A stretch of 64,000 nt of DNA from Bryoerythrophyllum caledonicum (lineage: Eukaryota; Streptophyta; Bryopsida; Pottiales; Pottiaceae), in contig OZ020520.1 in NCBI GenBank assembly GCA_963971425.1, forward strand, positions 27,063,535 through 27,127,534. Direction: 5' to 3'. Each line of letters begins with the position of its first letter. The stretch's first letter is position 1. The notes below the pieces were generated by a model, which did not search any database, was not told the DNA's origin, and worked only from the letters and a program-made list of their open reading frames with translations. A program made the translations under genes and the position numbers. Positions 10,206-63,999 of the stretch are shown one piece after another.

Positions 10206-11898
10206 TTAATCCTTAATTTCCTATACATTTTCACACCAAAAACACTTCAAAACTGCTCGATCTTGTGCAATGAGCAAAGTAAGAAATACAAAATTTCATT
10301 TCTACTTTTAACCGTAGGATCTCAATTAAGACTTATTCAGTGACATAATAAAAACAAATTCATAAACTTCGACCGCACAAAATATCATAGTATTTAACCC
10401 CTAAAGGTCCATGACCACTTTTGCTCTAAAACCAGTCCAAAACTATCACTGCCAAAGAGACATGAAAATCACATTTCGAAGTGAATTTTGGATTTTCAAC
10501 CGTAAGATCTTAAAATAGACTTCATTATGAACATGCTGTAAAATTTTGGTTGCAATCCACCGCACAGATTGATAGATTTTAGTGTTTAAAGTCAAAACAA
10601 TGGTTCATTTTCTTCCCTGCGCTGAGTAGATCAGCAGACTTTGACTTCACTTTGTATCAAATTTTTGCATTGTACAGGGTCTAAATCTTTTACCATTGTC
10701 TTAAGCATGATGTTATTTTCCAACACACCAATTTTTAGAGGTTAAAAAGGGGTGTAGCATATTAAAATCAAGTGTGCAAGGAGTAGAGGTTCAAAAATTG
10801 CCATTTCACGTTTTATTTTTTTGTGAACTACGTATGTATTCGAATGATAATCCAAACGGTCAATAAGAAGGTTTTAACTACATATTGTTGTTGAAAAAAT
10901 AAAAAGTGAAAAATATGAAGATCTCTAGGTTTTATGTAGAAAAGATGAAGTTATTTTCCCCCGTTGCCCGAAAATGTGTGAAAATGTTTGACTTGGAATA
11001 AAATGCCTTTTTACACTAAAGACAAGAATTTTTTTTGAAAATTTCCAAAAAAGGAAATATTCTTTATATGTGTGAAAAATCATAATGTCAATAGAAACTT
11101 TTGTCAAAAATTTTGGAGGTGCCCGGAGTCCCCACTTTGGCTTTAAGTAGTACTAACTTTCTAACCACAAATCCAATATATATATATATATTTCCACAAA
11201 GCTCTTATCAGATCCTATCTTGAAAAAAAAAATCCAATTAAAAAGGATTTTTTTTAAAATTGTAGGTACATGCCCAAAATCCAAAATGACCCCAGGGGGA
11301 CGTTTGGTCCCTTAGGGGTTAAAGTTTTTAAAATGGTTCATTTTCTGCCCTGCGTTGAGAGAATGACCAGACTTTGACTTCACTTGGTGTCAAATGTTTG
11401 CACTACACAAGGCCTAAAGCCATAACCATCATGTTAAGCATGAGATTGGTTCCTAGTGCACCAATTTTTTGAGATAAAAAAGGGTGTAGCATATTGAAAA
11501 CAATTGTGCAAGGATTGGGGGTTTGATAATTGTCAATTCATGTTAGATTTTTTTGTAAACTTAATATTTTTTTGGCAAAAATAAATTGGAAAAAATATGA
11601 AGATCTCTAAGTTTAATGTGGGCAAGAAGAAGTTTTTCTGGTTCCTAGCCCAACAATGTGTGAAAATGTTTGACTTGGATTAATATAATATTTTTCACTA
11701 AAATCAAGAAATTTGTCTTAAGATGGCATAATCTCTTCATAAAATGTTGAATTTTGGAAAAATTGTACTCACACAAAGTTCATAGTAGTGTCCATCTAGA
11801 GTAAAAATTTCAAAGAAGAATGTTACAAACTGACACCATAGGAAGCTGCCCAAACCTTTGAAAGGTCCTGAGGGGACTCTTTGGAATTTAGGGGTTAA
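10206..11898 (+). mobile_element. TTAA element family T, copy T2, split by nested T1
   Basis: It begins TTAATCCTTAATTTCC and ends TTTAGGGGTTAA (TTAA at 11895-11898). It is interrupted at its internal GTGTTTAAAGT by copy T1 (10394-11322), which shares the TTAA on both sides. Other T copies carry the same internal sequence uninterrupted. Copy A at 1495-1510 gives the approximate empty site. Confidence 0.75.
10394..11322 (+). mobile_element. TTAA element family T, copy T1 (929 bp), near full length
   Basis: Left end TTAACCCCTAAAGGTCCATG, right end GGTCCCTTAGGGGTTAA; the terminal inverted repeat is about 16-18 bp. The oppositely oriented T5 (29932-30864, 933 bp) aligns over its whole length. No open frame is shared between copies, so it is non-autonomous. 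TTAA target and CCC-starting ends point to the piggyBac superfamily (inference). Confidence 0.8.
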
Positions 11899-12669
11899 TT
11901 ACTTGTAGTATGCCAAATTTTTAATGGTCAAAGATGTGAATATATCCAAACAAGTCTTAAACGTAATGTGGTCACCACATATTTTAACCCCTAAAGGACA
12001 ATTTGTACTTATGGGGTACAAATCAATTTTGGACAGGTTCCTAAAAATTTAATTTTAAAGATAACTTCTTGAAATTTTTAGTAAGAATAGGAATACAAAT
12101 TATCTTTGCGGAATATATACATTTTATTTTTTTGGACTTGTAGAAAAAAATTTATGGCGCCTAAAAAAAACAAAGCATGTTCATTTTGGTAGTTGGGCAG
12201 GGTATTATAGAGATGCATAGTCCTACTATAGAGTTGACTATTGCACTTTTTGACGTGGCTAGTAGTGAAGAAAAGTTCTTGGCAACCTTCATTGTATTCA
12301 CCTAAAAAAGCATAGAAATTAAGGATTTTACTTTTTTGGAAAGATATTTTTCTTTATTGTTGAAATAAGTCATGATAATTCTATTCACTGTTCGGATTTT
12401 AGATCCAACAATTATTTCTCTATTTAAAAAATAAAACTATTTCCCTCAAGTAAAGTGCCACTATCTATATCCCTAGTTGTTGTAGGTCCATTTTTCTTAT
12501 CGTAAAGAGCTCCATTACTAGTAACCATTGCACGCAATAACCTAACACAAAGTAGAACATAGATCCATGACTTTATGCAATGTGTTGTTGAAAAATATGC
12601 CATTATCTTTAGTCAAAGTGTGCTACACTAAAAATGATGTTTAGTGAAGTGGTACGAATAGTGTACTTA

Positions 12670-13105
12670 GGGCCTCTTTACACTAGAGGCGAGAGGCCGT
12701 GAGGAGAGAAATTTCAGCCAATGGGAGGCATAGAAATCGAGAAGACCAAAGAATGTCACTTTACACCCGATTTTTTTAGTCCAAGGGACGAAAGAGGAGA
12801 AAATGACATGGACAACACTTTTGTCCTCCGTGGCAACGAAAGTGCATAATAATGAGGGCCCCCGGAATTATAGTTAGGCCTACCTCAAGAGGTGGGCCTA
12901 ACTATAAATTCGGGGGGCCATTGGCCAAAAAACTCACAACCAATCATTTAATATATTTAAAGATGAATTTTGAAAAAGCTCAACATTGGAGCTTTTGGCC
13001 TTCTCTCACTTTATACCACACCCAAAGGCCATGGCCTCTCAAGAATGTGCCATGGCCCAAGTGGAGTTTGGCCGGAGGCTTCTCGTTTCTAATGTAAAGA
13101 GGCCC
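12670..13105. mobile_element. PIF/Harbinger-type (Tourist-like) MITE (436 bp)
   Basis: Inverted ends GGGCCTCTTTACACTAGAGG and ..TAATGTAAAGAGGCCC are directly flanked by the 3-bp duplication TTA (12667-12669 and 13106-13108). F2 at 5850-5862 (GTACTTACCTTAGTAC) shows the unoccupied site with a single TTA. TTA duplication with GGGCC-type ends is the mark of PIF/Harbinger MITEs. No transposase. Confidence 0.85.
12856..12919. repeat. Near-perfect 64-bp palindrome
   Basis: Arms of about 30 nt: GGGCCCCCGGAATTATAGTT then AGGCC, inverted as AACTATAAATTCGGGGGGCC, with a minimal loop at CTCAAGAG. It lies inside the Harbinger-type MITE. Confidence 0.85.
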
Positions 13106-13703
13106 TTATTCTAGTACATTGTTTGTGAATAAGTTGACAATCAGTGTTAGTTTACAAAAAGAAACTTTGATTCCATGTCGGCGGCAAGCCCATGCTTCTC
13201 CTCATTTGCAACTTTCAAATGGCCATAACTCACTTGGTTTTTGTCCAAATTGGGCATATGAGGTGTTTTTTGACATCTACAGCAAACATAGATGCCAATA
13301 AACACCTCATATGCTCAATTCGGATTAAATTTGAGTGAGTTATGCTCTTCAGAGGAGTGCTGATAAGATACTCTGACAACTCTCGGCTTCTGGACCTTTT
13401 TTTGTACTTCTACTATTGATACACTAAATGTGCACAAGTGGATAAAATATTCTGCGATCTTTCCTAGAATTGTCAAATAGTGTAATAGTTGACATTTAGT
13501 TTACGGTTGTGTCACTACACTAAATGTCTAGTGTGCAATTGGTGTATGGGTTTGCATTTAGTGTATACTACGCTAGATAACATTTGTAGTGTTGCCCTAT
13601 CTGGGCATGGTGGGCAAAAACTATTTTGCACTCTTCACATGCATATATCTTTCAATTCATACGGTTAAAGTTTACAAAAATTTAGGGGTGCCTTCTCATA
13701 GTA

Positions 13704-13840
13704 CAGTAAACCCTGTTTTAATCAATACTTTGGGAACTAGGTCAAAATATTGAATTATGAAGGATATTGGTGCCGAATTTATTGATAGCCCACCAAAAAT
13801 ATTGAAATATGGAGGATATTGATTTAGACAGATTCTACCG
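13704..13840. mobile_element. pogo/mariner-like MITE (137 bp)
   Basis: Flanked by TA (13702-13703 and 13841-13842). The ends CAGTAAACCCTGTTTTAATC and, inverted, GATTTAGACAGATTCTACCG give an imperfect ~24-bp inverted repeat. The CAGTAAACCCTG-type end resembles pogo-like elements. Nested in Y3. Confidence 0.7.
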
Positions 13841-14246
13841 TAGTTAGCTTGGAGATCCAACGGTTGAAAATAGTAAAAATAAGTTTAAGTCTAATTATAT
13901 CTAATCACGAAGTGGCAGTTTTGGGGCAGTTTTGGTGAAGCATCAACCCGTTCCTTCATGAGTTAAGTTGCTGTAGATTCCAAGTTCTGAAAGACCCAAG
14001 TCAAAGCAATAACCAATCACCATGATCATATACACAAATACATAAAACATTACCAAACCAAATTGGAGGCAGCTAATGAAAATGAGGAAAGTGAGCATGA
14101 CAAGGAAGAAAGAAACAGATTTGTGTCAGTGAAACTCATTAAGGCAGCCCTGACATAGGTTTTAGGATGCAACGACATGATCACAAGCATCCAGGGAAAG
14201 TCCACAACTCACTGCAGATAGCACCCTCAAGTCCACAAACACCACA

Positions 14247-14249
<3 letters not shown>

Positions 14250-14291
<42 letters not shown>

Positions 14292-14425
14292 AACACAAAC
14301 ACACAAAACACACAACACATACTTACACTTGACTCACACACAAACACACAACACAAACACACAAAACACACAACACACAACACAAACACACAAAACACAC
14401 AACACACAACACACACACATACTTA
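14250..14425. repeat. (CA)n microsatellite and derived ACACAAACAC repeats
   Basis: A pure CA run of about 16 units followed by imperfect ACACAAAACACACAAC-type units. It lies just 3' of cereblon; a short remnant persists in duplication copy A at 1796-1818. The Thr/His- and Cys/Val-rich reading frames here are artefacts of the repeat. Confidence 0.95.
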
Positions 14426-14789
14426 CACTTGACTTCAGGAAGAGCCTGCTACAGCCTCGAGTACATTTAGAATAAATACGCATAGTCAGAAGAGAGGACG
14501 GATCTCCACAGCACCGGTTCCTACGCTCGTCTCAAAAAATCAAAAAAGAATCTGGTACAGCATCACGCCTACGCCGAGGTTGTAGTACCCCAATTTACAC
14601 CGTCCAAAACCGCAAGAAGAATGATGCCGCCGCCGCCGCCGCTGCCGCAACAACAGCACAAGAGAAAGAGGGAGTGGAATGTACACATGGTCCTAAGAAG
14701 GGTGAGGAAGAGTCTGTGGGCCTAGGACTGCTGCAAAATTGGCTGGAGAGGTCACAGCCATCGTCACTTTGCCGGGGGTTTGGGGAGGT

Positions 14790-17700
14790 TTAGTCCCAGT
14801 AGAGGTCTCCGGGGGGCTGGGACTCGGAGCTGCCGATGAGCTGCGTGCGGCGGATGCCCCAAAAGGTCTGCGGGCGAGTCTCGGGGTCCACGGCGATGAA
14901 GCGCCACCCCATGTGCTGCTCCCGCCGGTTCAGGTAGCATCCCTGGCACTTTGCCAAAATCCACGCGTACCTGCAAGTCGGAGCAACTAGATTAGAACAC
15001 GAGAGGAGTGGTATTGCGTAAGATGCGCTTTGAATGATGGAAGGCAGCTCATGTTCATTGTTGGTCTCATGCAAGCTCTTTCTTCATTGAAAGCACACAG
15101 CTGGAGCTACTTCCACGTGAGTTTTGAGTTCTTCCATGCGTAACTGAAGGATTCGAATTGAAAGACCACCGATTATATAGAGTCAGCAAGTCGAAGACTA
15201 CTCTGATCAACCAACACAATTGCGACCAGTGACACTTACCCTGGGAACCAGCTGTTCTCGGTCTGCGGCGCTCCTTTGATGCGCATGTTCTGAGCGCACG
15301 ACAGAGTGAGCGTCTCGTGCACATACCCATGTGCGTTCACATAAGCCCCGATTGCGCCCTCCGTAGACATCACAAAAACATCGCTTTGCCGTGCAATAAC
15401 CTCCTGAAAGAACCAAACAACACTATCAGAAAAACACCATATGAAAACTGCGGACACAACACAACCTCCTGAAAAAACAAAAAGACTGAAACACTTTCAA
15501 ACACCATTTGGATGCTATCTCAAACACCATTTAGAAACTGTATCAGACACCATTTGGGGCCAACATGAAAAAAATACGTAGTTGGAAGAGTGCTTACCCC
15601 GCAGCAATTACATCTCAACATGTCCATGCCTTTCAGGAGCTCGATCTCGCGCTTGAGGCGCTCCAGAGTGGAGTCGATCTCGAGAAGCTCCTGGCGCGTG
15701 TGGTCCTGGATGGGCATGTTGCTGCCTATGTAATACGAAAGCGCCGTAGGACATGAAATCTCCGCTAACCGGGGATGGTCCCCCATCTGGCCCAGCATAT
15801 CTAAACAATACAAAACAAAAGGAACCAACAAATCAGTAAACATTCAAAGTGTGAGGACAGACCACGGTTCATTCTTAAGACCATTCACATCAGACTCTCT
15901 GAACGTGAGTTCCGCACCATCTCGGATGGACTTATGATTGCTACATTGAGGTGAACATGTGCTTAATAGAGTGTTAGGAAAACAAAATTACTGCACAAAC
16001 CTTGATGCAACACATCTTGAGTGCCACGAGAGAGGTATGGTACTTGCATCACGGAAAGACAAGTTTCAAGTAATTCCTCACCTGCTGCTCTGCGAGCCAG
16101 ATCGTAGGTGTCGTACTGGCGGTACACCCAGTGCGGCAGGGACGAGAACTGCGCCCTCATTGCCCACCGCGACGCGTCCTGCCTCCACATTCGGCACGCG
16201 TTTGCATACGGCGAGCCTTGCGGTCTTGGATCCGAGACAGGGACGATCGTGGTATCTCTGCTTCGTGCAAGCAGCTCCGGCACAGACGCCGCAACTTCGG
16301 CCTTCTCTGCTTCCTCGTCTGCTTCCACTGGTGGCGCCGTCTCCGGCTCTCGCTCCGCGCAGTTCCTGCCGTTGTTCGGCTCCCTCCGCATCACCTCCAT
16401 CCTCCGCCCAATGGCGGTGCCGTCGTTGGCTCTCAGACGCACGGCAGGTCGCTCGAAGTCGGAGTCGTCGCTGATGCTGTCGTCGTCTTCGCTGCTGGAG
16501 TCCAGCTCGTCCTCCTCGCCAGTGAGCGCAGCGATCATATCCTCGCTCTCATCCCTGCAGCACACGTCGACAGAGAACAGACAAGGTCATGAAATGCCAG
16601 TCCCGAAGACTTGACGTGTGGAGTTTTCCAACGAGAGGACGCACTTACCCTTCGTGCTCTCCGTTTCTGTAGGCCTCGGCTTCCGCTTGAGCCGCCCGGA
16701 TAGCTCTACAGTACGGGAAAACTATGGCTCAGCGAGCAACCTGGGAAAGCCAATTGCTGCAACGAGAAAGAAGGAAGGCAGGCAACCAACCAACCTGATG
16801 AGGGCCTCGTGTTGCCGGGCGAACTGCTCCTCGTCCTCCGACTCCTCCACGAACTCGTCCACGCTCGCGACGTGCGAGTTGATCGATGCCGTGGGGCTCC
16901 GGCCGCTCCTGCGGTTGAAGGAGGTTGCTAGTGGGCCGAACGCGTCGTTCATGTGGCGTGAGAAGTAGCCCAGTGTCTTCGTGTCTTCTTCAATGATTTG
17001 CACCTGAGCGAAGAGCTGCATCGGGAAGCATCATCAGCTAGTTAGCAAAGCAGATCAGCCTCGGTACGTTCAGCGAGTCAGGGGAAGGAACTTACTGCGC
17101 CGTCAGGTTGAGTCCACACAGACAAAATCCTGAAGCGCTGCTGCCCCTTCGTCATCACGTTCACGGATCCGTCCCGCTGCTCCTTCACCCTACAAATCTG
17201 TAGAGAACAAACATTAGAGAAAACACTAGACGAGTTATAGAGTCGGCAACAAACCAGCATGAAATCTGCCAAAACATGTTGGAACTTACCTTCGCAGTTG
17301 TGCCGTAGTTAGCGACATGAATTCTGCCGCTCCGGGAGACGCGCACATGAATCTGCGATGTCACACTTGTGAGTGACGGAGAAATTTGAAGTATGAAGAA
17401 GAGAGGATTAAGGTCTCCAACTTACCACGCCGAGTGTTTGAAGGGCGTCGTTGGCCACCGGGTCCATGGCATGGGACACAGCCGCCTTGAACCGCTGCTG
17501 GAGCACGCGGAGCGGGAGCTTCTGGCCCGGAAACAACACAATACCTGAGACACAACTCACTCGTCAGAAACATCTGAGGTGAAGCAAACAGAAAGAGCTG
17601 TGAAAACAAGTGTGAGACGTACCCTCCAAGTAGAACATGGGCAGTCGCAGCACCGCTCCATCTACGCCATTGAAGCGCTCATTGCCCACATCCTCCACTT

Positions 17701-21163: not shown

Positions 21164-21385
21164 TTAACCCCTGAAGGACCAAGGCATTTCATGGTAATCT
21201 CTACTCCATTGATTAAAAATCGTCAAGGTGAACTTTTTGAGAATGTAACCATAGGATTTTCTTCTAAACTTATATGAGATGATGTGGTATAAATTTTGTG
21301 AATTACGATTGTACAGATTGAAAAATAATTGCACTCAAGGTGAAACAGATTGTCCCCCAAATGGACGCTTGGTCACTTAGGGGTC
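21164..21385 (+). mobile_element. Short TTAA element Z1 (222 bp)
   Basis: TTAACCCCTGAAGGACCAAG at the left; the right end is GGTCACTTAGGGGTCAA (target TTAA mutated to TCAA). It is nearly identical in layout to Z2 and Z3. It looks like an internally deleted TTAA element, ending in the same GTGAATT..GACCG..GATTGAAA words as longer families. Confidence 0.7.
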
Positions 21386-21439
21386 AACCCCTGATTCTTT
21401 GTCTCTAGTGTTTGACCCCTAATTATGTGTCTCTAGTGT

Positions 21440-21649
21440 TTAACTCCTAAAGAACCAAGGCACCTCAGAGGAATCTCTACACTGCCAAGATGAACTATCT
21501 GAAAATGTAACCCTATGACCCTCTCCTAAACTTGTGTGAGATGATGTGGTAAAAAAATTGTGAATTTTGACGGTGTGGATTGAAAGATAATTGCTATCAA
21601 AGTGGAAAATTTTGTCCTCCGAGCAGACCCTTGGTTCTTCTAGAGTTAA
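21440..21649 (+). mobile_element. Short TTAA element Z2 (210 bp)
   Basis: TTAACTCCTAAAGAACCAAG at the left and GGTTCTTCTAGAGTTAA at the right. It lies 54 bp downstream of Z1 in the same orientation and aligns with it end to end. Confidence 0.7.
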
Positions 21650-24755: not shown

Positions 24756-25603
24756 TTAACTGCTGAAGGAATGAGACTATGTTTCTCCCAAAACCCCCTC
24801 CAAAACCGCCTTTAAAAGATGAGATGTTACAAGACTAATTGAAACAACTTTTCACTCTTTCAACCATACAAGCTTTAAGCTAACCACTACAAGGAGACGC
24901 TTTCAACAATTCGTAAAGTTTGACCGCACAAATTGTAAGATGAAAAGCTTTTGAAAAGTGCAATATAGTTTTTTCTTCCCTCCATGAACATGATCATGAT
25001 ACTCGGACTCAAGAGAATGGCATATTTTCTTACTACACATAGCAAGATTCCTATAGATCTATGTTCTATCTTGTGTTAAATCATTGCATGCCAAAAATCA
25101 CAAGTGCTCAAGATGTATAAAAGATAGCCATTTTCTAAGGAGACTATTTTATTTCTTAAATAAAGAACTAATTAATTCTTAAATAGAATCTAAACTTCGA
25201 AAATGGGTAGGATTATTATGCTTTCTTTTATTAGAGAAAAGATTTTTGAAGAAAAAGTAAAATCCTTAACTTCTATGCGTATTAAATTTAAAGCAATGAG
25301 GGTCGCCAAGAACTTTCCTTCATTGCTACCCACCTCAAAAAAGTGCACTGTTCAACTCTATAGAACCTCGCTCAATTGCCCCAAACTTGTGCTTTCTGTG
25401 TATGAAGCACCACAACTTTTTTCCCTATGAACTTTTTTTTAAAAATTAAAATTTACGTTAAAAAAAAAAACATTCCCTCAAAAATAACCTATATTCCTAT
25501 TCCCACTAATTTTTTCAAAAATGAATCTTCTATATTAGATATTTAGAACCTGCCCAAACTCAATTTGTACCCTGCTTGTACAAATTGTCCTCTGGGGGGT
25601 TAA
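24756..25603 (+). mobile_element. TTAA element family Y, copy Y1 (848 bp)
   Basis: Left end TTAACTGCTGAAGGAATGAG, right end TCTGGGGGGTTAA. It is colinear with Y2, and with Y3 and Y4 in inverse orientation. Its internal CTTGTGTTAAATCATTGC is the unoccupied site for the T element nested in Y2 (35030-35938). Confidence 0.7.
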
Positions 25604-26146
25604 AAATCAACACAAGAATTAATAGAGCTTTAGTTGGGATATAAACGTAAAGGGTTATCTTTACGTCCTCTACAGTAAATTTCCTCACCCTCCAAAAGTA
25701 CAGAAGTCATACCACCTTACAGTCCTCTCCCAATACGTCAAGGGCTATAATTTTGTCTGTGATGGCCGCTCATAATATCTGTGTCACTAATCAAAGTACT
25801 ACTTTGAAAGATCCTGAAAGCAGGAGCCAAGATTGAATTGCCCCAATCGTGCTACCATGGAACACAGGACGCCTGACCCCCAAGTACCAAAAGTTTTTTT
25901 TCACATGAGTCCTATGTTGCATGTAAATTCTCTCCATTTCATGGATGATGACAACTAGAAAGTCCAATGATACATTTACACCCAAGGATTTGGATCGAAT
26001 AGCAGTACACTGATTAGCTCTACGATGGAATGTAGGAAAGAAGTCTCACGCATTGTACCATTCAACGGTGTCCGGATTGGTCCTATTACCCTGCCAAAAC
26101 GGAAAACATGGAGGTCTGGAGTTTAGGTTCAGGGTTTAGGTTTGAC
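25604..26146. other. Gene-free stretch
   Basis: No supported gene or element; includes an isolated telomere-like AGGGTTTAGGTTT at about 26132. Confidence 0.5.
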
Positions 26147-26366
26147 CTCAACAGGACCAAGGCCTCTTAGAGGAATCTCTATTCCATTGATTGAAGGCTA
26201 TCAAAATGAAGTTTTTGAGAATGTGTCCGATTGATCATTTTCTAAACTTATATGAGATAATGTGGTAAATTTTTTTGTGAAGATTGACCGTACAAATTGA
26301 AATATGATTATGATCAAAGTGAAAAGTTTTGTACCCTGCAAGCACACTTGGTCCCTAAGGGGTTAA
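26147..26366 (+). mobile_element. Short TTAA element Z3 (~220 bp)
   Basis: The left end is degenerate (CTCAACAGGACCAAGG) and the right end intact (GGTCCCTAAGGGGTTAA). The body aligns with Z1 and Z2. Confidence 0.6.
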
Positions 26367-28541: not shown

Positions 28542-29336
28542 TTAATCCCTATAGGCCCAATGTCCTATCCGGGTACATTTTGGGTTTGGGTAGGGTACCA
28601 CGTTCTCAAATTTAGTTGGGATGTTCTAAGATTTTTTTATTGAATGAGAAACTTTTGAATAGCTTTCCATAGACATAATTCTTGTAGAATCCGACTTATG
28701 GTTCAAAAATTACAATTAATTTTTGGTGACATAAGCAAATTTGTGTGACCTATGACAAATAGTGTAGCAAATCCTAATAAATTATGAATTCAATAGAAAT
28801 TAGGCTTTTGGTCCATTGTTTAAAAAGAAAATAAAATCTTTGAAAGGATATGCAAATCTCTGCATCTATCAAAGGAATTTTTGAATTTCAAAAAGTTGAG
28901 AAGGATGTGTTATATGCAAAACTTGTTAGTGTATTGTCAACACTCAACACATTGCAAGAATTTTAGGGACATCTTCTACCCCTCTTCAACTTCTAAAATT
29001 TGATGCACATGTGCCTAACATGATCCTTCATTAGTTGAAATTAGAAAACCACAACCCGTAGTGCAAAAAGTTGTCATGGAAGGTGGTCAAAGTTTCCTAA
29101 AGGTGTTTGATATGACCTCAAATAACTTCTTGTCTCACTTCAAATGCTAATATCTTTCAATACGTGCGGTCAAACGTCCCAAATTTTCCACCACACACTC
29201 TTATACAACTTCAGTACAAGATCCTACCCTTACATTTTGAAAAACAATGTTTTGTATCATTCTATGTTGAATGCGCTAAAAATGGCAAATTTGAAGTGTT
29301 TTTGGTGTGAAAATGCCTTGGGCCTTTCGGAATTAA
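28542..29336 (-). mobile_element. TTAA element family C, copy C1 (795 bp)
   Basis: Left end TTAATCCCTATAGGCCCAAT, right end GGGCCTTTCGGAATTAA. The body is the inverse of C2 (51406-52212), for example GGGACATCTTCTACCC here against GGGTAGAAGATGTCC there. Confidence 0.7.
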
Positions 29337-29931: not shown

Positions 29932-30864
29932 TTAACCCCTAAAGGACCAGAGTCTCCTTCGGGGGGATTTCTGATTGTGGGCAGGTTCCTAAAATTTTAA
30001 AAAAATCCTTTTTCTCTAATTTTTTAATTCTAGATTGCCTCTGATAAGAGCTTTGTGGACATATTTTTATTTTATTTTTTGGATTTGTGGTTTGAAAGTT
30101 AGTACCACTTAAAGCCAAAAGTGGGGACACCGGGCACCTCCAAAATTTTTGACAAAAGTTTCTATTGACATTGAGATTTTTCACACATATAAAGAATATT
30201 TCCCTTTTTAGAAATTTTCAAAAAAAAATCTTGTCTTTAGTGTAAAAAGGCATTTTATTCCAAGTCAAACATTTTCACACATTGTCGGGCAACTGGGGAA
30301 AAAAACTTCATCAATTCTACATAAAACCTAGAGATCTTCATATTTTTCACTTTTTATTTTTTCAACAACAATATGTGGTGAAACCCTTCTTATTGACCGT
30401 TTGGATTATCATTTGAATACATACGTAGTTCACAAAAAAATAAAACGTGAAATGACAATTTTTGAACTTGTTCTCCTTGCACACTTGTTTTGAATATGCT
30501 ACACCCCTTTTTTACCTCTAAAATTTGGTGTGTTGGGAAATAACATCATGCTTAAGACAATGGTAAAAGATTTAGACCTTGTACAATGCAAAAATTTGAT
30601 ACAAAGTGAAGTCAAAGTCTGCTGATCTACTCAACGAAGGGAAGCAAATGAACCATTGTTTTGACTTTAAACACTAAAATCTATCAATCCGTGCAGTGGA
30701 TTGAAACCAAAATTTCATGGCATGTTGATATAGAAGTCTATTTTAAGATCTTATGGTTGAAAATCCAAAATTCACATTAAAATGTGATTTTCATGTCTCT
30801 TTTTGGCAGTGGGAGTTTTGGACTGGTTTTAGAGCGAAAGTGGTCATGGTCCTTTAGGGGTTAA
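29932..30864 (-). mobile_element. TTAA element family T, copy T5 (933 bp), full length
   Basis: Begins TTAACCCCTAAAGGACCAGA and ends GGTCCTTTAGGGGTTAA, an almost perfect terminal inverted repeat. It aligns over its whole length with T1 in inverse orientation. It has no shared reading frame. Confidence 0.85.
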
Positions 30865-32636: not shown

Positions 32637-32940
32637 TTAACCCTTACCCGTGAAGGTCCAAGTGTCTGTTAGGGGGACGATTTTTATTTTGGGTAGGTTC
32701 CTAAAATTTGAATCAATTTTTATTTTTTTGAATTTTTCATACTAAATTGTCTCTGTGATTAGAGCTTTGTGGAGGTTTTTTTAAAAAACTTTTTTGGATT
32801 CCTGGTTTGAAAGTTAGTACTACTCAAAGTTAGAAATGGGGACTCTAGGTAGCTCCAAAACTTTGCTAGAAGTTTCTTGGCATTGAGATTTTTCATACAT
32901 ATAGAGAATAAGCCATATCTTGACGTCTCGGTGTACTGTA

Positions 32941-45264: not shown

Positions 45265-46410
45265 TTAACCCCATAAAGATCCATGACAATTTCACACCAA
45301 AAACACTTCAAAATTGTTGATTCTAGTGCAATGAGTAAGGAAGGAAATAAAACCTTATACCTATCCTTTTGACCGTAGGATCTCCATCAACCCTTAAAGG
45401 ACCAAGTGTCAGAAATGGGCTTTTTGAGAATTTGGTCCATTTCCTATGGTGTCAATTTCCAACATTCCACTTTTAATTTTTTACTGTAGAAGGGCATTAC
45501 TAAGACGTCAATGGGAGAACAATTTTTTCCTAAATCCAACATATAATGAAAAGGTGATAGGGTTTTGAATTTCAAATGGGGAGAGCGGGCACTTCGGGCA
45601 CCTCCAAATTTTTTTGGTAGGACACTCTATTGAATGTGAGATTTTCAATACTAGCAAGTAATATTTTTTCCCTTCATGATGTCAAAAAAAAGTTCTTGTC
45701 TTTAGTGAATAATAGCATATTAACCCAAGTCAAACATTTTCACACATTGTCGGGCAAGGTACCAGAAAAACTTCTTCTTTTCCACATAAAACTTAGAGAT
45801 CTTCTCAATTTTCACTTTTTATTTTTTCCACAACAACATGTGGTGTAAACATTCTAACTAATCATTTGGATCATCAATTTAAAACATATTAATTTCACAA
45901 AAAAATAAAACGCGAATCGGCAATTTTTGAACCTCCACTCCTTGCACAGTTGTTTTGAATATGCTACACCCCTCATCTACCTCTAAAATTTGGTGTGTAA
46001 GGAACTAACATCATGCTTAACACAATGGTAATGGATTTAGACCTTGTGTAGTGCAAAAATTTGACACCAAGTGACGTCAAAGTCTGCTGATCCACTGAAG
46101 AAAATGAACCATTTGTTTGACTTAAAACACTATAATCTTTCATTCCGTCGGTCAAAGTTCATGAATTTTTTTGAGTATGTTACTGAAAATAAGTTGTATT
46201 TGAGATCCTACGATCAAAACTAGAAATAAAAGTTTTTTTTCCCTTCTTTATTAATTGCACTAGAATCCAAGTATTTTGAAGTGTTTTCGGTGTGAAACTG
46301 TCACGCTCCCTTAGGGGTTAAGATTTACTAAGTAACATACTCACAAATTTTCATACACTTCGACCGCACGGATTGAAAGCTTATATTGTTTGAAGTCAAT
46401 GATATATACA
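45265..46410 (+). mobile_element. TTAA element family T, copy T10, split by nested T11, right-truncated
   Basis: Left end TTAACCCCATAAAGATCCAT. After 122 bp it is interrupted by T11; the host resumes at 46322 (GATTTACTAAGTAACATACT) and fades near 46410. Confidence 0.7.
45387..46321 (-). mobile_element. TTAA element family T, copy T11 (935 bp), nested in T10
   Basis: Left boundary TCAA (mutated TTAA) then CCCTTAAAGGACCAAG; right end CTCCCTTAGGGGTTAA. The host reads GGATCTCCA|TCAA..TTAA|GATTTACTAAGTA; the unoccupied form GGATCTCCATTAAGACTTAC is at 35146-35165. One family member is inserted in another in opposite orientation. Confidence 0.85.
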
Positions 46411-46792: not shown

Positions 46793-47733
46793 TTAACCCC
46801 TAAAGGCTCTGACTATGTTTCACCAAAACCACTCCAAAATTACTCATTCTAGTAAAAGAGTAAAAAGAGAAGAATACAAGTCTATCATTTGTGAGCATTC
46901 CATCTCCAACCATAAGATCATAATCTACACTACTAAAATGACATGCTCACAAATTTTCGTAAGCTATAACCACATAAATTGAAACATTATAGCGTTTGAA
47001 GTGACCAAAAACTTATTTATTTTTTCTTGCATTTGAAGGATCACAGACTTTGACTTCGCTTGGTGTCAAGTTTTACAGCAGTATCCAATTTTATACCATA
47101 AAATCGGATGTGGTGTTAGTTCCTTGTACACCAATTTTTAGAGGTATAAGAAAAGTGAGGTATTTTCAAAAACATTAAGCTATGAAAAAGGTCAAACGTC
47201 ACAAATCCACCATTTGTTTTTATTTTTTAAAAAATGATTCTATGTAAATCGATAATCCAAGTGGTCAAAAGTGAGGGTCATGCTTTTCTTAAAGTTAAAA
47301 AAAAACAATTAAGAAAAATATGGAGATCTCTAATTTTTATGAGGAATTATTTTTTTGTACACCTTCTTCAAAAAAGGTGAGAAAACTTTGACTAGTCGTA
47401 GAGTGAATGTCTTACATCACGGAAGGGGTTTCTTATTACAATCTCAAATGAAATAATGTAAGTTGATTGTATTAAAAATCTCATATTTAAAAGAGGGTCA
47501 CATCAAAACTTTTTGAAGATGCCCAAGGTGCATGCTTTGGACAATTTTTTTAAGAAGACATAACGGTTTTTCTACGGGTCTAATGAGAATAAAATTTATA
47601 TTTCCACATAGCTCTTATCTTCTTGCATCTCTACATAGAATTTTCCAGAATTAAAACTTTCAAATTGCCACCATGGAAACCAATTATAGATTTGCAAAAG
47701 CCCACCTTGGGACTTTTGGTTCTTTGGGATTAA
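46793..47733 (+). mobile_element. TTAA element family Y, copy Y5 (941 bp)
   Basis: Left end TTAACCCCTAAAGGCTCTGA, right end GGTTCTTTGGGATTAA. The start CACCAAAACCACTCCAAAAT matches Y2. Uninterrupted. Confidence 0.7.
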
Positions 47734-47804
47734 AATAGGCATTATGGATACATTTTGAAAAGTGTAGGGGGGAGTTGGAAAATGGAACACCAAAGGTTGG
47801 TTTG

Positions 47805-49314: not shown

Positions 49315-50610
49315 TTAACCCCTCTAGGACATTTTGTATTTGTGGCGGTACATTTTGAGTTTGGGTGGATTCTTAAAAATATAATTAACCCTTAAATTCC
49401 AAAGAGCCCCTTGGGGTACTTTTGAGGTGTGGATAAGTTCCTATGGTGTCAATTTATAACATTCTTCTTTGAATTTCTAACCGTAAATTGACACTACTAG
49501 AAGCTTATTGTGAGTAATTTTTTTCTTCTTTCAAAATCCAACATTTTAATAAAAAAAGTTATGCCAACTTAAGGAAAAACGTCCGGAGAGCGGACACGTC
49601 GGGCAACTCTAAAAACTTTTGTTAGGACATTATATTAAATGTGAGATTTTCAATAATAGCAACTAATATTATTTCCTTTTGTACTCTCAATTTTTTTTGT
49701 CTTTAGTGGAAAATAGCATATTAACCCAAGTCAAACACTTTCACACTTTGTCACACATTGTTGGACAAGGTACCACAAAGACCTCTTCTTTTCTACATAA
49801 AATTTAGAGATCTTCATATTTCTTACAATTTATTTTTTCTATTACAAGATGTGTAAAACTTCTCGTTCGACTATTCATATTATTATTTTAAAACATATTT
49901 ACTTCACAAAAAAATATAACGCGAATTGGCAATGTTTGAACCTCTATTCCTTGCACAATTGATTTGAATATGCTACACCCCTTCTTTACCTCTAAAAATT
50001 GGTCTACAAGGAACTAATATTATGCATATCATGATGGTAATTCATATAGACCTTGTGTAGTGTAAAATTTTGTGACCAAGTGAAGTCAAAGTCTACTAAT
50101 CTACTCAACGCTTGGAAGAAAATGAATTGTTTCTCTACTTCAAACACTATAATCTTTCAATCCATGCGGTCAAAGTTTATGAAATTTTGTGAGCATGCTA
50201 CTTAATAAGTATTAATTATGATCCTACGATTAAAAGTAGAGATAAAAGTTCTTGTTTCCTTCTTTACTCATTGCACTAAAACAAGCAATTTTGAAGTGTT
50301 TTGAAAGTGAAAATGCCTTGGGATTTAGGGGTTAGACATTAGTTTTGAAAAAATACTTAGTAAGAATAGGCATATGGGTTATCTTTGGGGAATTGGTTTT
50401 ATTTTATTTTTTGGACTTATTGGGAAATATGTTTGGCGCTTCAAACACAAAAAGTTGGACTCGGGCACTTGGGCTCGGTACTATAGAACTCAAAAGTACC
50501 CTTTTTTGAGGCGGGCAACATGCAAAAAAAAAAAGTTCTTGGTAGCCCTCATCGATTTTACAGAATGTATAGAAATTAAGGATTTCAAAATGTTCCCTGT
50601 GTTGTGAGGG
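49315..50610 (-). mobile_element. TTAA element family Y, copy Y4, split by nested T12, truncated
   Basis: Left end TTAACCCCTCTAGGACATTT. T12 occupies its internal TTAA. The host resumes at 50336, matches Y3 (TTAGTAAGAATAGGNAT, TATAGAAATTAAGGATTT) and fades near 50610. Confidence 0.65.
49385..50335 (-). mobile_element. TTAA element family T, copy T12 (951 bp), nested in Y4
   Basis: Left end TTAACCCTTAAATTCC, right end GGGATTTAGGGGTTAG (TTAA mutated to TTAG). Y3 near 12045-12060 gives the approximate unoccupied site. Confidence 0.75.
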
Positions 50611-51179: not shown

Positions 51180-52219
51180 GTAACCCTTAAACGTCATAAG
51201 GTGCCACTAGCAGCCATAGAATTCTACACTTACAGTGTTGTATCTCAACATGATAAGGTTCAGATATTGAAGTGACCTTCGAATGAAAGATGTTAGTTGA
51301 AGAATCTTCAATTCAAAGGTGTAAGTCTTGCTAAATTTTAATACATTTTTTTTGGTATTCTATATAGGGAAACATGTGCCTGTATATATGGTTTCCGACC
51401 GACGTTTAACCCCTAAAGATCTTTGACATATTAGCATCCAAACTCACCGAAAACTGCTAGTTTCAATGCATACAACACAAAATGCATGTATGCACATTTT
51501 TTACAAATCTAAGCGTAGGATCTTCTACTAGGATTGTAGAAGTGTGGTAAATTTTTTTGTTTAGTTTGACCTCACGGATTGAAAAATATTGGCCTTTGAA
51601 GTCAAACATAAAACCTTCTTAAGGTCATACTCAACACCTTCAACAAACTTTGACCACCTCCTTTGGCAAAGTTTTGTACTACGAGCCGTGTATTTCTAAT
51701 TTTACCTTAAAAATGATAATGTTAAGTACATGCAAATTTTAGAAGTAGAACATGGGTAGAAGATGTCCTTAAAAATCTTGTAATGCAACTACGTGTTGAG
51801 AATTAACAATACATTAACAAGTTTTGCATATATCATATCCTCCCCATATTTTTGAAATAAAAAAATCCACACTGTAGATGCAAAAACTTCCATTTCCTTT
51901 CTAGAGGAATTTTCTTTTTTGCAAATGGACAAAACTCGTATATCTATTGAATTTAGACTTAATTAAATTTTTGCTAAACTATATATGTATGTCGCCCTAA
52001 ACCATTGCAGTATTTGTATGTGTTACTGCAAAATGTTTATAAGTTTTGAACCGTAAGTTGGATTTCTACAAAAATTATGTCAACAAAAAGCTATTTAAAA
52101 GTTGCCTACACAATTAAAAATATCAAATAATCTTGCCAAAATTTGAGATTGAGGGACTCAATTGAAATTCAAATAGTCCCCCCCGAGAGGACTGTGGTTG
52201 TTTAGGAGTTAAGGGTTAA
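51180..52219. mobile_element. TTAA element W2, nested in V1, its right end split by C2
   Basis: The left end is GTAACCCTTAAACGTC. The right end is GACGTTTAA|GGGTTAA, in which C2 has inserted at the TTAA of the terminal repeat itself. Once C2 is removed the two ends are perfect inverted repeats for 15 bp (ignoring the mutated first base). Confidence 0.75.
51406..52212 (+). mobile_element. TTAA element family C, copy C2 (807 bp)
   Basis: Left end TTAACCCCTAAAGATCTTTG, right end GGTTGTTTAGGAGTTAA. It aligns inverted with C1 (28542-29336). The target was the TTAA in the right terminal repeat of W2. Confidence 0.75.
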
Positions 52220-52483: not shown

Positions 52484-53402
52484 TTAACTCTAAAAGACCA
52501 AGTGTCCCTTGGGGGACGATTTTGATTTTGGGGAGGTTTCTAAAATTCAAGAAAATATCATTTTTTTTGGAAATTATTACACTAGATTGTCCTTGATAAG
52601 AGCTTCATGGAGGTATTTTTATTATTATTTTTGGATTCATGGTTTGAAGTTAGTACCACTCAAAGCTAGAAATGGGGACTTCGGGCAGCTCCAAAATTCT
52701 GCTAGACGTTTCTTTAGACATTGAGATTTTTCATACATACAGAGAATATTTGAAGCTGTCAAAAAAAGTTCTTGTCTTTAGTGTAAAAATTTATTTAAAC
52801 CCAAGTCAAACATTTTTCACATTTTCAGCAAGTGGGGAAAAAAACTTCATCTTTTCAACATAAAACCTAGAAATCTTCATTTTTTCCATTGTTTATTTTT
52901 TCAACAACAATATGTGGTGAGAATCTTCTTATTTACCATTTGGATGATCATTTTTAAACATATTAAATTCTCAAAAAAATAAATCATGAACTGACAATTT
53001 TTGAACCTCCACTCCTTGCACACTTGTTTTGATTATGCTACACCCCTTCTCTACCTCTAAAAATTGTTATATACTGAACCAACATCATGCTTGACACAAT
53101 GGTAAAGGAATCAGACCTTGTGTAGTGCAAAAATTTGATACCAAGTGAAGTCAAAGTCTGCTGATCCACTCAACACAGGGAAGAAAATGAATCATTTGCT
53201 TGACTTCAAACACTAAAATCTTTCAATCCGTGCAGTCAAAGTTTATGAAGTTTGGTGAGGATGTTATTTTGTAAGTTTGAAATGAGATCCTACGGTCAAA
53301 ACTACAAACATAAGTTTTTGTTTCCTCCCTTACTCATTGCACCAGAATCAACAATTTTGAAGTGTTTTTGGTGTGAAATTGTCATGGGCCTTTAGGGGTT
53401 AA
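52484..53402 (-). mobile_element. TTAA element family T, copy T13 (919 bp), full length
   Basis: Left end TTAACTCTAAAAGACCAAGT, right end GGGCCTTTAGGGGTTAA. The body aligns with T5 and T6. The target was the TTAA in the right terminal repeat of V1. Confidence 0.8.
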
Positions 53403-54120: not shown

Positions 54121-57031
54121 CTAACTAGGACTTGAGGAACGTCTGGAAACTCGGAAGTGACGACGTCCTGCGGAACTTGAACCAGAGCCTGATCCGCTGC
54201 TCTCTCTCCTTTCTTTCCTCTCTTGCTTCTGCATGTCACAACCAGCAGCATTCGATGATGAAATGAAAACTCAACACTAGCAGGCAGAAAAAAGATAGAG
54301 ATGCGGCAAGAAAGAAGAAATACCGTGGCCTCGAGCAGCGGCGACTTGTCTCCTTTGTAGTCCACCAGCGACTTCCCTCTCTCGTCCTTAAGGGCCAGAT
54401 ACTCGATGCAAAACGGGCCCTGATTCCTGCGCGGGTCGTTCGGGCCCAGCGCGACACTATTGGTGCGGAGCGTCACGTGCCACTCCGCCGTCACCTTGAC
54501 GTCGTCACCGACGGTGAACTCGCGGCTGCTCTTGGCGTTGTACCACCACAGCCCCTTCTTCCACATGATCGCGCCGTTCATGGACGCTTCTACCTTGTTC
54601 AGCCCGAAGTTCCGCGGCGTGGGCCAGATCTTGCACCTCAGCACGATCCGGGAACCAGCCACGGTGCAGATCACGCGGATGCTGTTATCCTTGATGTCGT
54701 ACGACGGCGAGCTGCATAAGCACAGAAGCGTTACCAAGGTGTAGGATATCTAATTCAACCATTTCTTGAATAATGAAATTATTCGGAAGGTCACCCCAAG
54801 GTTTTAGTAATATCCTCCCACTTTGAGATGTATTACACTACAATTTATCCACTCTGGCTAGTTATTGGTTCAGTAGAAGGGCTTGGTAGTCTATCCTTCA
54901 ATTGAGTATACAAGAGCTTCCATCTCTTGATTTGATACAGTATTCTTTCCTCACTCTAACTAATGATTAGATCGACACAAGAGTTCGGTGTTTCTACCCT
55001 TTTACTTGGTGGTCTCAAAACCCCAAACAAAGCAGTTGTAGCCGTTTTTGAGAGTAAAGAAAGATCAACCCTGATTAATCTTAGCTGATTTCAGATTGAT
55101 TGAGAGATCTTTGGAGGTGAGTTCAATGATAAAGAAAGGGGAAACTCCGGGTGACTTGCAAATAACACGACAAAATCCTGGGAAGGAAGTGTACCAGTTG
55201 CCGAGCTGGGTAGTATTGTTAAACGAGTCGTGACAGCCTCCAGTACTGCTGAACCGATTCAAAGGCACCTGGAATGGCAGAAAGTACCTCCTGATCAACT
55301 CCCAAACCAAATAAAAAACCTGTGGAAATCACAGAGCGAAGAAAAGCAGCCAGATACTGACCTCAATGGACGGGAACTCGGAGCTGGTAGAGATGTCCTT
55401 GCAATTGGCATTGTACAATCCGGCGACCACGTCCTGCATGGAGGGCCGGTTCTCCTGCCTCTCCTGGACGCAGTTGCGCGCAATCTTGACCACTTCGAAG
55501 ACCTGGTCCCAGTTCACTTCCAGGGGGTTCATGCGGCTGTCCACGACGCGCGGGAGAATGTGGCGCATCACGTGCTCCTCCGTGTGCAGAAAATCCTTGC
55601 ACCATTCAAGCAGGCTCAGCTTCTGCTGAATAGCCCGCCGCCCAGTGATGAGCTCCAGCAGCACCACGCCATAGCTGTACACGTCGTTCTTGTCGCACGG
55701 CTGCCCATTCCGCAGGTAAACCGGATCCCTGCAACCATAACACATGGCTCCATATGAGTACACACATTTGAAGCATTCTAGAACGGGTGCTAAGGCGGGT
55801 TTCCATGTAGGAATCTTCGAGAAGGATGATTCCTAAAAGAGCATTTACAACTTCTTGAAACAAACTAACTGAAAGTGGCTGGTGAAAATGGAGCAGGTGA
55901 CCATCAAAAGGGAGCAATCGAGGTGTGCCAGTGAAGAATGAGTATGATCCGTTGGTGAAAGTATTAATCACTGTTGAGATTCTTATCTGAAGCAGTGATT
56001 CAAGAGGCCACCCTCGCATTGGATATAGAATGTTATGAAGCTGTAAGGTGTGCACACCTTCAAGAAACCAACAAGCATGGGTCCACACCTTCAACATTTC
56101 TGTATCGACATGGAGAGAGGGGTAGAACTTACACATATCCGTGAGTGCCGCGGACGCGCTTCGAGACGGTGGGCTCTTCCCCCGAGATGACGGGTTTGCT
56201 GAGCCCAAAATCGGCAATCTTGGCGTTCATTTGATCGTCAAAGAGGATGTTTCCAGACTTGATATCGCGGTGCACGAGCGACGGATTGGCGTGACTATGC
56301 AGATACTCGAGCCCCTGCGCGACCTCGACGGCGCAGCGCATGCGCGCGGCCCAGTCCAGCACCAAGCCCTCACCATCCTCGGGCGTGCGCGGGTGCAGGT
56401 GCTGGCTGAGGGAGCCCTTGGCCATGAACTCGTACACCAGGAACAGGTCGTCCTCCTCCACGCAGTAGCCCAGCAGCGCCACCAGGTTGCGGTGGTGCAG
56501 GCGCGAGATCGTCCGCAGCTCCGCCCAGAACTCCCTCTCCTGGCTCTCCTTCTCACCACCGCCCACCAGCTTCCGCTGCTCGCATCCGCCCTTCTTCTGC
56601 AGGCGCTTCACCGCCGCGGTGCCGCGCCCCTCGGGGCGCACGGCGAAGTACACCACGCCCTGCCCGCCGCGCCCCAGCTCCAGCTTGAACCGCTCCGTGA
56701 TGTCAACGATCTCCTTCAACCGGTACTGCTTCAAGGATCCCACCAGCGAGCGCGTGGGGCTCTTCCGCAAGCTCGGCAACGACGAGGCCACAATCTCAGG
56801 CTTCCTCTCCGTGCCTTTCCACCAGAACCCGGTGCTCACGCCCGCCACGAACACCACGCACAGCGAGCACACCGCGCCCACGGACTCCACACCGCCGCAC
56901 TCAGCCTCGAACGCCTGCGCCTCCCCGCTCACGCGCGCCATCGCCATAGCACTCCCCAGCATGCACGCGTTCAGCCCTACCCATCGCCATTGCACCCACT
57001 TCGACCACAACCCCTCCACCTCCACACCCAT
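54121..57031 (-). CDS. Receptor-like Ser/Thr kinase (RLK/Pelle type) with a C-terminal extension, 5 exons, 611 aa
   Basis: Exons (minus): 57031-56133, 55728-55362, 55268-55195, 54711-54324, 54228-54121. All are GT-AG and the phases join; exon 3 is the least certain because its donor (AACTG|GTACAC) was chosen by phase. There is no long ectodomain: one hydrophobic segment at about 50-70, then the kinase. Kinase landmarks: Gly120/122/125 loop (LGRGGQG), Lys142 (AVKRL), Glu171, HRD 254-256 with Asn261, DFG 274-276, GTHGYVDP at about 295-302, VYSYGVVLLELITGRR and RNCVQERQENRPSM. This is an RD kinase with every catalytic residue. The plant RLK/Pelle family acts at the plasma membrane in signalling. 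Unusually, about 190 residues follow the kinase: a Cys-containing block (RVICTVAGS, VLRCKIWP, MWKKGLWWYNA) and a basic Ser-rich tail. That part was not recognised. Confidence 0.85.
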
Positions 57032-57783
57032 CTCTCTCCCCTAGTCAAGCCCCTCACACCATCAACACTGCCACCCCAACCAACCTAAAAAGCTCCAACG
57101 GCGCGGCGGCTGTGGCGAGGATGGCGCAGTGGCTGAAGGAAACAGCCGGGAATCCATCGTGAACAGGTCAAACCGTAACGCCTCTCCATGTCACAGGCTC
57201 ATCCTCATCCCCACCAAAGATGGAAGTCTTCAAACGGATCATGCGATCATCTCTCTTCTCCTTCAACAGTCGACGATCGATTGTAGATCCCGAGGCGTGA
57301 GGCGTGCCGATAATGAATAATTCGTCGTGGTCCCGGTCTCGTGGAGGGGTAGGGCGGCAGATTAATGGAGTGGTTGGCTGGCGGTTGGGTTGACGAGATC
57401 TGGGTCCCGCGCGTTTGCTGGAGCTCGGCCCGGCCATAATGCACGCGCGTTCATTCGTCTCATGTGTGCCGACATCTACGAGAAAGTAAGTAGTAGTATT
57501 CATGATTCCTGCTCTCAGTTGTTGATGCGCTAGACTTATGTCATACCTGTCCGGAGCTTCTGGGGGCTGTGGTGTGAGGTGGAAGCATCCTGGATAACAA
57601 AATTCGTATTCTCAAGTCGCGTGGGTTTCTGGAAGGGGTCATTGTTGGAATTACGGCAGGAGCATTTTTGGGGGTATTATAATATATTATTTTGTTGAAA
57701 TATTATTATGTAATTGTTCCGTAAGAGTCTTTATTTGTGCCGTAGAGCACATCATGCGGTGCATCCTATAGGGTGGGAGTGCT
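57032..57783 (-). promoter_or_regulatory. Upstream region of the receptor kinase gene
   Basis: GC-rich for about 500 bp 5' of the kinase start, then AT-rich; consistent with 5' untranslated and promoter sequence. A minus-strand frame at 57168-57503 has no recognisable feature. Confidence 0.4.

Positions 57784-60877: not shown

Positions 60878-60939
<62 letters not shown>
60878..60939. repeat. (TA)n microsatellite, about 30 units
   Basis: A continuous TA run. The Tyr/Ile repeat reading frames over it are artefacts. Confidence 0.97.
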
Positions 60940-60944
<5 letters not shown>

Positions 60945-61838: not shown

Positions 61839-61861
61839 ATATATATATATATATATATATA

Positions 61862-62794: not shown

Positions 62795-63193
62795 AGGTTG
62801 GATGACCTATAACCACCAACTTAAGCTTGCTGACCTATTTATAGCGTTTGTATACGTGGTATGACATTTTTTGGGAATTCAAAATAGGATTTCATGAATA
62901 TTGCAATTGTCGTGACCATTTATTTCTTCATATTGAAATTGTTACAAATTTTCAAAGTGGATAGTAAGCCGTGACCCATTCCTCAACATACAAAACTCTC
63001 TATTTCCACACTAAGTTGTACTAATAACCACTTCTTCATGGACTAAAAACCGGCAGCTTTGAACCAATCATGAACTAACACCCAATCAAATCTGACTTCC
63101 TAAAATTTCGGAAATGGGGTGGGTCTGTGGTGGTTTTGGTCCACTTTTGCTTATCCGTTATGGGGTTCGTGGTGGTTATAGGTCATCCAACCT
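62795..63193. mobile_element. mariner-type MITE (399 bp)
   Basis: Flanked by TA (62793-62794 and 63194-63195). Inverted ends AGGTTGGATGACCTATAACC / GGTTATAGGTCATCCAACCT, perfect for about 23 bp. Non-coding. Confidence 0.75.
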
Positions 63194-63796
63194 TACATGG
63201 CAGCACTTTTGGGGAGTTTTGGCTTGAAGGTGACAACCTCTCGAGCAAAACTTGGGTTGAGCCAAACTTCCTTTAAAAATCCGTTAATTCTTTTATAAAA
63301 TAATCAAAATCTGACAAGATCTGGACGGTTGAATGAAAATGGCCAAATTTTTTGGGGCAAGTGACAATGGCCGTTTTTTTTCCCTCAAGGAGTGAAAGTG
63401 GCCATCTCGCTTCCTCTCTCGCTCTCTCGCGAATTTTTTTTGGATTGGCTTTTTAAAAAAAAATTAACGTGTTAGCCTTCTTGTTCTCTTTGTTTTTGTA
63501 CGCTTTGAGAAGATGAATCATTTTTTTAAAAACCTCCAATATCGAAGCAAGGGGAGCCTTGAGGATTCGGAAATTTTTATGGGCTAAATTTGTATGGTGC
63601 ATTTCAACCCTTTTCAGCTCAGGTTAGAGAGCAAGCGGTATATAGAGTAGAAATGGAAAGAATTGAAGAGACGATTGTTGATGGAGAGGATTGTGAAATT
63701 GTAGGGTCCTAAAAAAAAGTTGCTCCAAAGAAGAAGGTTGCCTCAAAGGAGAAGGTTGCAAAGGAGGTGGTGGTCCAAGTTGAAGGAGAAGAAGGA
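63194..63796. other. Gene-free stretch
   Basis: Includes a short AAGGAGAAGGTTGC repeat at about 63718-63765; no gene supported. Confidence 0.45.
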
Positions 63797-63999
63797 AATT
63801 GAACATTGATGGCTGAATTTGGAGGTCCTTCAATTGATTGTGTTAAAGGAAGAGATGGAGCCCGAATTTGAGAGAAACAACAAGAAGCAAAGTAAATCTT
63901 TTAACCCTATACCCTGCAATTTGCAAAAGGTTTGAGAATTGTAAGGCCAATTAGAGGCCTAATTTGAGGCTCAAATTTAGCCATCAATGTTCAATTTAT
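63797..63999. repeat. Inverted repeat at the window end
   Basis: AATTGAACATTGATGGCTGA (from 63799) recurs inverted as TAGCCATCAATGTTCAATTT (63978-63997). A TTAACCCTATACCCTGC end-like sequence lies between them at 63901. It may be part of an element continuing beyond the window. Confidence 0.6.

Follow-up and report, generated by a model that had tools for sequence, protein, structure and literature searches.

What are the short, non-coding insertions that crowd a 64 kb stretch of a plant-type genome (64,000 nt of contig OZ020520.1, positions 27,063,535-27,127,534; hereafter the window), and what has moved them? An earlier note on this DNA had described about 30 insertions bounded by TTAA and, from their ends and target, had placed them in the piggyBac superfamily; it had predicted TTAA boundaries genome-wide, duplication of the TTAA and a piggyBac transposase with a DDD domain between TTAACCC ends. 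The insertions are confirmed: the window has 19 occurrences of their end motif where 0.12 would be expected, and the members and pieces of seven families occupy 16.8 of the 64 kb, about one quarter of the window. The superfamily assignment is likewise supported, by transposases lying between matching ends in the same genome, by TTAA boundaries and by empty sites. We conclude with high confidence that the families are non-autonomous piggyBac elements, similar to miniature inverted-repeat transposable elements (MITEs), that were probably mobilised by a transposase encoded elsewhere in the genome.

The T family can be followed across the whole genome (437,360,962 bases in 894 contigs). A DNA search with the window copy T1 gave 6,458 first-look candidates, 40 of which were scored, and yielded 48 matches including the window copy: 39 other places at 94-95% (37 over query positions 1-933 and two nearly full) and eight partial places at 74-85%. 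Boundaries were checked in 20 of the 21 best other places (C3:15069267, with a match that begins one base later and stops two bases sooner, was omitted). All 20 copies, at 40 of 40 ends, carry TTAA, and their flanks are, by eye, unrelated. Both T ends have CCCCTAAAGGACCA, terminal inverted repeats beginning with CCC or CCY and within the approximately 13-20 bp expected for piggyBac. The termini of the 20 copies are CCC ... GGG, with one CCT and one CCG as exceptions, and the best-kept ends of the other families begin with CCC, CCT or CTC. The exact 18-base sequence TTAACCCCTAAAGGACCA occurs 5,530 times in the genome (2,743 + 2,787), against none for the reversed control, once in the prokaryote collection and never in the viral collection. 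Among the first 100 places listed, neighbours of TTAACCCCTAAAGGACCA within 1.2 kb are convergent in 20 cases, divergent in two and alike in one; the convergent pairs span 819-971 bp, 17 of the 20 at 929-938 bp.

The same genome is rich in piggyBac transposases. The PF13843 (piggyBac transposase) profile gave at least 120 matches above the cut-off, at 116 or more places, and no match in any of 14 control genomes. At the 28 of these 116 places that were examined closely (designated here by L numbers), three aspartates are invariably retained in the aligned positions, and the domain is free of stops in 21 loci, with one stop in six and two in one. Two of the proteins were searched against PDB sequences, where the only hits were piggyBat (9c0f) and T. 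ni piggyBac (6x67). The query aspartates align opposite D268 and D447 of 6x67 (printed numbering), which we take to be catalytic residues of T. ni piggyBac, with a DN motif between them. Domain identity among 18 representatives ranges from 35 to 87%, which suggests that the transposase population is diverse and probably old; the domains of L012, L018, L025 and L084, which form one clade, are 68-78% identical.

The predicted arrangement of a DDD transposase between TTAA-CCC ends is found in 13 of the 28 loci, where paired TTAA-bounded CCC ends enclose the domain (L009, L012, L014, L016, L017, L020, L024, L027, L028, L081, L082, L083 and L085). The inverted repeats agree most strongly in L017 (16/16) and L028 (15/16), followed by L016 and L024 (12/16) and, by eye, more weakly in L085; the right end of L028 is also found in L088. 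Several autonomous families have recent copies. In particular, copies of the L012 type share about 95-99.8% identity over stretches of kilobases, nine of nine visible ends of this family lie at TTAA with flanks that differ beyond, and an L012 copy is itself inserted in a T-like element at TTAA. L027-type ends are 98-100% identical in five of six further copies, with nine of ten ends at TTAA and one at ATAA, and L081/L083 and L017/L020 are pairs at 97-98%. Altogether, four autonomous families have near-identical copies at unrelated sites.

A subterminal hairpin at the left end was considered as a shared signature and rejected, being a tendency rather than a rule. When a stem was required to be matched by no more than 20 of 300 shuffles (folds were computed for eight ends), stems were present at 9 of 14 left ends (L017, L020, L027, L028, L012, L014, L082, L084 and L085), 4 of 13 right ends (L012, L014, L085 and L018) and 2 of 24 MITE ends (X2_3 and T3_5); by that measure they were absent from the left ends of L016, L024, L025, L081 and L083. 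In this test the T3, Y1 and E1 ends were cut 1-5 bases off register and the Y2 start one base early. The left ends of L027, L082, L017, L028 and L084 have short palindromes 15-20 bases inside, similar in place and different in sequence from lineage to lineage.

Target duplication can be read from elements of the window that lie within one another. The window contains the following elements and pieces:

2605-3384, plus strand: Y2, a Y copy with the left end TTAATCCTTTAGTGCC and without a right end, 83% identical to 33639-34399
10206-11898, minus strand: T10, a T copy split by the T copy at 10394-11322; each half aligns with other T copies
10394-11322, minus strand: T2, a full-length T copy of 929 bp, TTAA at each end, 91% identical to 29932-30864
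11984-12666, minus strand: X3, an X copy with one end TTAACCCCTAAAGGACAATTTG and the other lost, 73% identical to X1
21164-21387, plus strand: E1, an E copy of 224 bp, TTAA on the left and TCAA on the right
21440-21649, plus strand: E2, an E copy of 210 bp, TTAA at each end
24756-25603, plus strand: X2, an X copy of 848 bp, TTAA at each end, which serves as the empty site for T3
26142-26366, plus strand: E3, an E copy of 225 bp, TTGA on the left and TTAA on the right
28542-29336, minus strand: a further listed part
29932-30864, plus strand: T1, a T copy of 933 bp with inverted ends CCCCTAAAGGACCA, TTAA at each end
32637-34716, plus strand: T7, a T copy broken by two inserts, Y1 and an unclassified one at about 32911-33300
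33640-34421, plus strand: Y1, a Y copy within T7, TTAA on the left and CTAA on the right
34713-36526, plus strand: X1, an X copy split by T3, its left TTAA common to T7
35030-35939, minus strand: T3, a T copy within X1, TTAA on the left and TTGA on the right
36526-36715, minus strand: an E-like piece in the interval between X1 and T9, 79% identical to 21196-21378
36715-37233, minus strand: T9, an incomplete T copy consisting of one end and another T piece
38347-38655, plus strand: the C element, 309 bp, TTAACCCTTTGGTGCC ... TTAA, also present in L088
38903-39503, plus strand: T8, a truncated T copy, TTGA on the left, 85% identical to 45390-45972
45265-45384, minus strand: a T end fragment, 89% identical to 53404-53284
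45387-46321, plus strand: T5, a T copy of 935 bp, TCAA on the left and TTAA on the right
46793-47800, plus strand: V, a T-related element, 69% identical to T, its right limit approximate
49385-50335, plus strand: T6, a T copy of 951 bp, TTAA on the left and TTAG on the right
51406-52219, plus strand: a listed element with ends scoring 27 against L012_5 and 15.5 against L012_3 (shuffled maxima 16 and 8)
52484-53402, plus strand: T4, a T copy of 919 bp, TTAA at each end; its positions 7-203 match the left end of L084
61562-61827, minus strand: a Y piece with the right end TTAACCCTTTACTG, 80% identical to 3142-3374

The natural empty sites of the nested insertions have one TTAA-type site and the filled sites two, as expected of a TTAA duplication. 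Y1 breaks T7 at ATGC-TTAA, with TTAA on its left and CTAA on its right, and the same site is uninterrupted in four other T copies (TTAA in two, TTGA in one, changed in one). At the T3 site, the filled X1 has TTAA and TTGA, whereas X2 has a single TTAA and X3 a single TTAG. When T2 is excised in silico from T10, the joined flanks, in which three extra bases were retained, form a continuous alignment with T6 in which one TTAA-type site is present. Finally, neither T10 nor X3 is present in a tandem copy of the host gene (about 1380-1600), which has ATAA (near 1480) at the first site and TTGA at the second; the alignment of the paralogues is gappy and the T10 comparison there less clean, and for X3 it reveals the target only and no duplication, because the other end of X3 is lost.

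On visual inspection, four insertions have hit one and the same TTAA within T copies (ATCATGC-TTAA): a T copy, an L012 element, an L025 element of which only the left side is visible, and Y1. This TTAA is a possible preferred insertion site. The T copy of L029/L030 lies within another T, at the TTAA used by Y1 in the window. The other insert in T7 (window 32911-33300, about 390 bp) is without clear TTAA ends.

The short families were compared with transposase-bearing elements by alignments anchored at the ends. In the shuffled controls the first 14 bases were left intact and the remainder was randomised, 52-56 times per row. The 5' ends of T1, T2 and T4 score 38-49.5 against the left end of L025 (shuffled maxima 9-16), the 3' ends of T1 and T2 53.5-57 against the right end of L018 (15-16), and the 5' ends of T5 and T6 35 and 23 against the 3' end of L012 (13 and 11.5). 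The X ends score 18-28.5 against L012 (shuffled maxima 9-14), two of the four being closer to L018; the X3 end reaches 28.5 against the L012 3' end, for which the shuffled maximum is 14. The Z ends score 15.5-36.5 against L012 or L018 (8-16). BLAST matched T4 7-203 to L084 755-953 (69%, E 1.8e-14) and T1 733-933 to L018 8041-8241 (76%, E 1.8e-33), in both cases without the T body. In gapped alignments, the T5 5' end and the L012 3' end share 77% identity across 110 aligned bases, the T1 3' end and L018 75% across 159, and the T2 5' end and L025 74% across 153, whereas T1 and the unrelated ends of L017 and L028 give 66% over 92 and 60% over 102, with more gaps. L084 and L025 are alignable to 356 bp, past the part shared with T, and are therefore element ends rather than stray pieces of T.

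Taken together, the similarity of the T, X and Z ends to those of the L012/L018/L025/L084 clade exceeds that of shuffled controls. We assign T and Z to this clade, to which X and E probably also belong; transposases of the clade would have moved T and Z, and probably X, in trans. The suggestion of the earlier note that one transposase had mobilised many derivatives thus finds support in T, X and Z, for a clade of transposases rather than a single one; it does not extend to C, nor firmly to Y and E. In the proposed mechanism, a piggyBac transposase encoded elsewhere in the genome would bind the CCC-starting terminal inverted repeats together with flanking sequence, excise the element and reinsert it at a TTAA, which would thereby be duplicated. 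T, Z, X and E would have lost their middle part or gained foreign middles, with both of the ends on which the transposase depends retained. We infer these biochemical steps, together with mobilisation in trans, footprint-free excision and present activity, from sequence comparisons.

Several observations weigh against this reading. At the palindromic TTAA, a 4-bp duplication and a 2-bp TA duplication look alike, and therefore the superfamily call rests on the transposase and the ends. Among the PF13843 places, some on short contigs could be duplicates created by the assembly. A complete end pair was not found in 15 of the 28 loci: in L011, L013 and L015 nothing but the right end is seen, a left end is present in L084 and L025 and a right end in L018 and L088, and in the remaining eight no trusted end was found. 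Five of the 13 pairs (L016, L024, L028, L082 and L085) are known from a single copy, the sixth further L027 copy gave no end match, the right limit of L018 comes from one copy, and the right limits of L084 and L025 (TTAG), whose outer flanks are alike, are tentative. No one autonomous copy is closest to T at both ends: L025 and L084 match best on the left and L018 on the right, L012 matches both ends less closely, and the 5' ends of T3, T5 and T6 are nearest to L012 instead. The 67-71% identity of T1 and X3 with L012 proves nothing alone, because unrelated ends reach 60-66%. X is linked by anchored scores, with no BLAST match. E resembles the right side of L084 at one end only (15-23, shuffled maxima 9.5-14), and its body partly matches inside L084 and L025, which could reflect a nested E. 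The Y ends are weakly above the null (12.5 against 10-12 and 9-10 against 4-6.5); the C ends do not exceed it against the autonomous ends, and a parent of C was not found among the transposase loci compared.

The alternative that survives best is that the families are derived from piggyBac but long dead, and out of reach of the young autonomous families. The window T copies diverge from one another by 9-31%, the 39 best other places stand at 94-95% to the window copy, and the L027, L017 and L081 families have no end match to T beyond the motif. However, the L012 family, with its recent copies, has ends that align to T, Z and X, and T copies may resemble one another more than they do the window copy; we regard this alternative as unlikely. 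That the ends are shared through convergence on TTAACCC and recombination among MITEs, without a common transposase, is much less probable still. The family bodies do differ, and C, and nearly also Y, have no more than the first bases in common with the end of any autonomous element, but the T and Z alignments exceed 110 bases under a null that already keeps the first 14, and the BLAST matches to the T ends leave out the body.

The elements might instead be Kolobok (or Sola3) derivatives, with the piggyBac genes as bystanders. Sola3, like Kolobok and piggyBac, targets TTAA. Kolobok, which the earlier note had named as the alternative, is reported from chlorophytes and red algae in the available part of PMC9587614, but its termini are given there as 5'-RR..YY-3', and the ends here start with CCC; Kolobok and Sola transposases were not searched for. 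These ends also resemble those of piggyBac elements in the genome, and we consider such an origin highly improbable. The weakest candidate is a Tc1/mariner-type origin, in which a TA is duplicated and TTAA strictly preferred as target. Such elements would leave identical sequence behind, and the window has an open reading frame (3543-4757) with HTH_Tnp_Tc3_2 and DDE_3, but the inverted ends of that element (AGTACCTTGCAAATGAG) are unlike T and T-type ends are found on piggyBac elements of the genome, so that the likelihood of such an origin is close to nil.

Beyond the assignment of the families to non-autonomous piggyBac elements, a wider reading would be that piggyBac has long been a resident of this lineage, as a major DNA transposon system that remains active, that many of its lineages radiated in one genome, and that one clade cross-mobilises several MITE families with unrelated bodies, which make up a sizeable share of the non-coding DNA. 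On this wider reading we are evenly divided.

The window also contains features outside these families. Beyond the truncated Y copy, at 3435-5115 (limits approximate), lies the Tc1/mariner-type element, with a 404-codon open frame and inverted ends AGTACCTTGCAAATGAG. A fold-back element with the ends GGGCCTCTTTACA and TTA on each side (12667-13111), presumably akin to a PIF/Harbinger MITE, occupies the expected place of the second end of X3. A tandem duplication of a gene region is seen at 245-2153 and 7278-15409, its pieces 68-84% identical, and a degenerate tandem array of TTTACTTTTTCAAAAC-like units with a period of about 16 bp at 5951-6307. The protein near 14.8-16.6 kb appears, by eye, to be cereblon-like. 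The frame at 43182-43967 has a weak, sub-cut-off match to PF21056 (ZSWIM RNaseH-like, E 0.00089) and is possibly a remnant of a transposase of the Mutator-like element (MULE) type. The best matches of the kinase at 56129-57040 are plant receptor kinases (CERK1, SYMRK, LysM kinases and BRI1), with animal IRAK kinases lower, which supports a streptophyte host.

piggyBac is one of the main tools in animal genetics, and most of its well-studied natural examples come from animals. The 116 or more transposase places found here, several of them near-identical, offer transposases native to plant-type cells along with natural short substrates. They could be used to study how a single transposase serves many MITE families, and possibly to tag genes in such an organism; they also raise the question of how piggyBac rose to such prominence in this lineage.

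The earlier note had called the superfamily little described in land plants and their algal relatives. Our limited literature search found no structural description of a streptophyte piggyBac. Its occurrence in plants had, however, been stated earlier, judging from the available portions of PMC8086355, PMC10140906 and PMC10794571, and the accessible part of PMC4438587 counts piggyBac among the superfamilies present in every group studied, in a table that covers land plants. Excerpts of two genome reports give numbers: one piggyBac element of 75 bp in a grass assembly (PMC8319324), and 1,230 elements totalling 122 kb in the assembly of the fern Ceratopteris, with no structural description in the excerpt (PMC6890710).

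Among known systems, the Ceratopteris annotation is thus alike in having piggyBac-labelled repeats in a land plant. The piggyBac MITEs of Helicoverpa, as described in the part of PMC9033116 available, are also short non-coding members of the superfamily, but their host is an animal and the likeness is one of description, not of sequence. Kolobok shares the 4-bp TTAA duplication and differs in its RR..YY termini (PMC9587614, in part), against CCC..GGG here, and in its transposase family. As to the ends of piggyBac itself, most begin with CCC in an animal survey, CCCTT being commonest (PMC10813416, available portion), and CAC is common in bees (PMC10140906, likewise). The elements described here resemble T. 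ni piggyBac and piggyBat (Pfam PF13843, DDE_Tnp_1_7) in the TTAA target and boundaries, the DDD transposase, the short inverted repeats of about 14 bp starting with CCC, and the non-autonomous derivatives; they differ in the plant-type host, in the at least 116 scored places and in the thousands of T ends in one genome. The kind of element is already known; its host and its scale are unusual.

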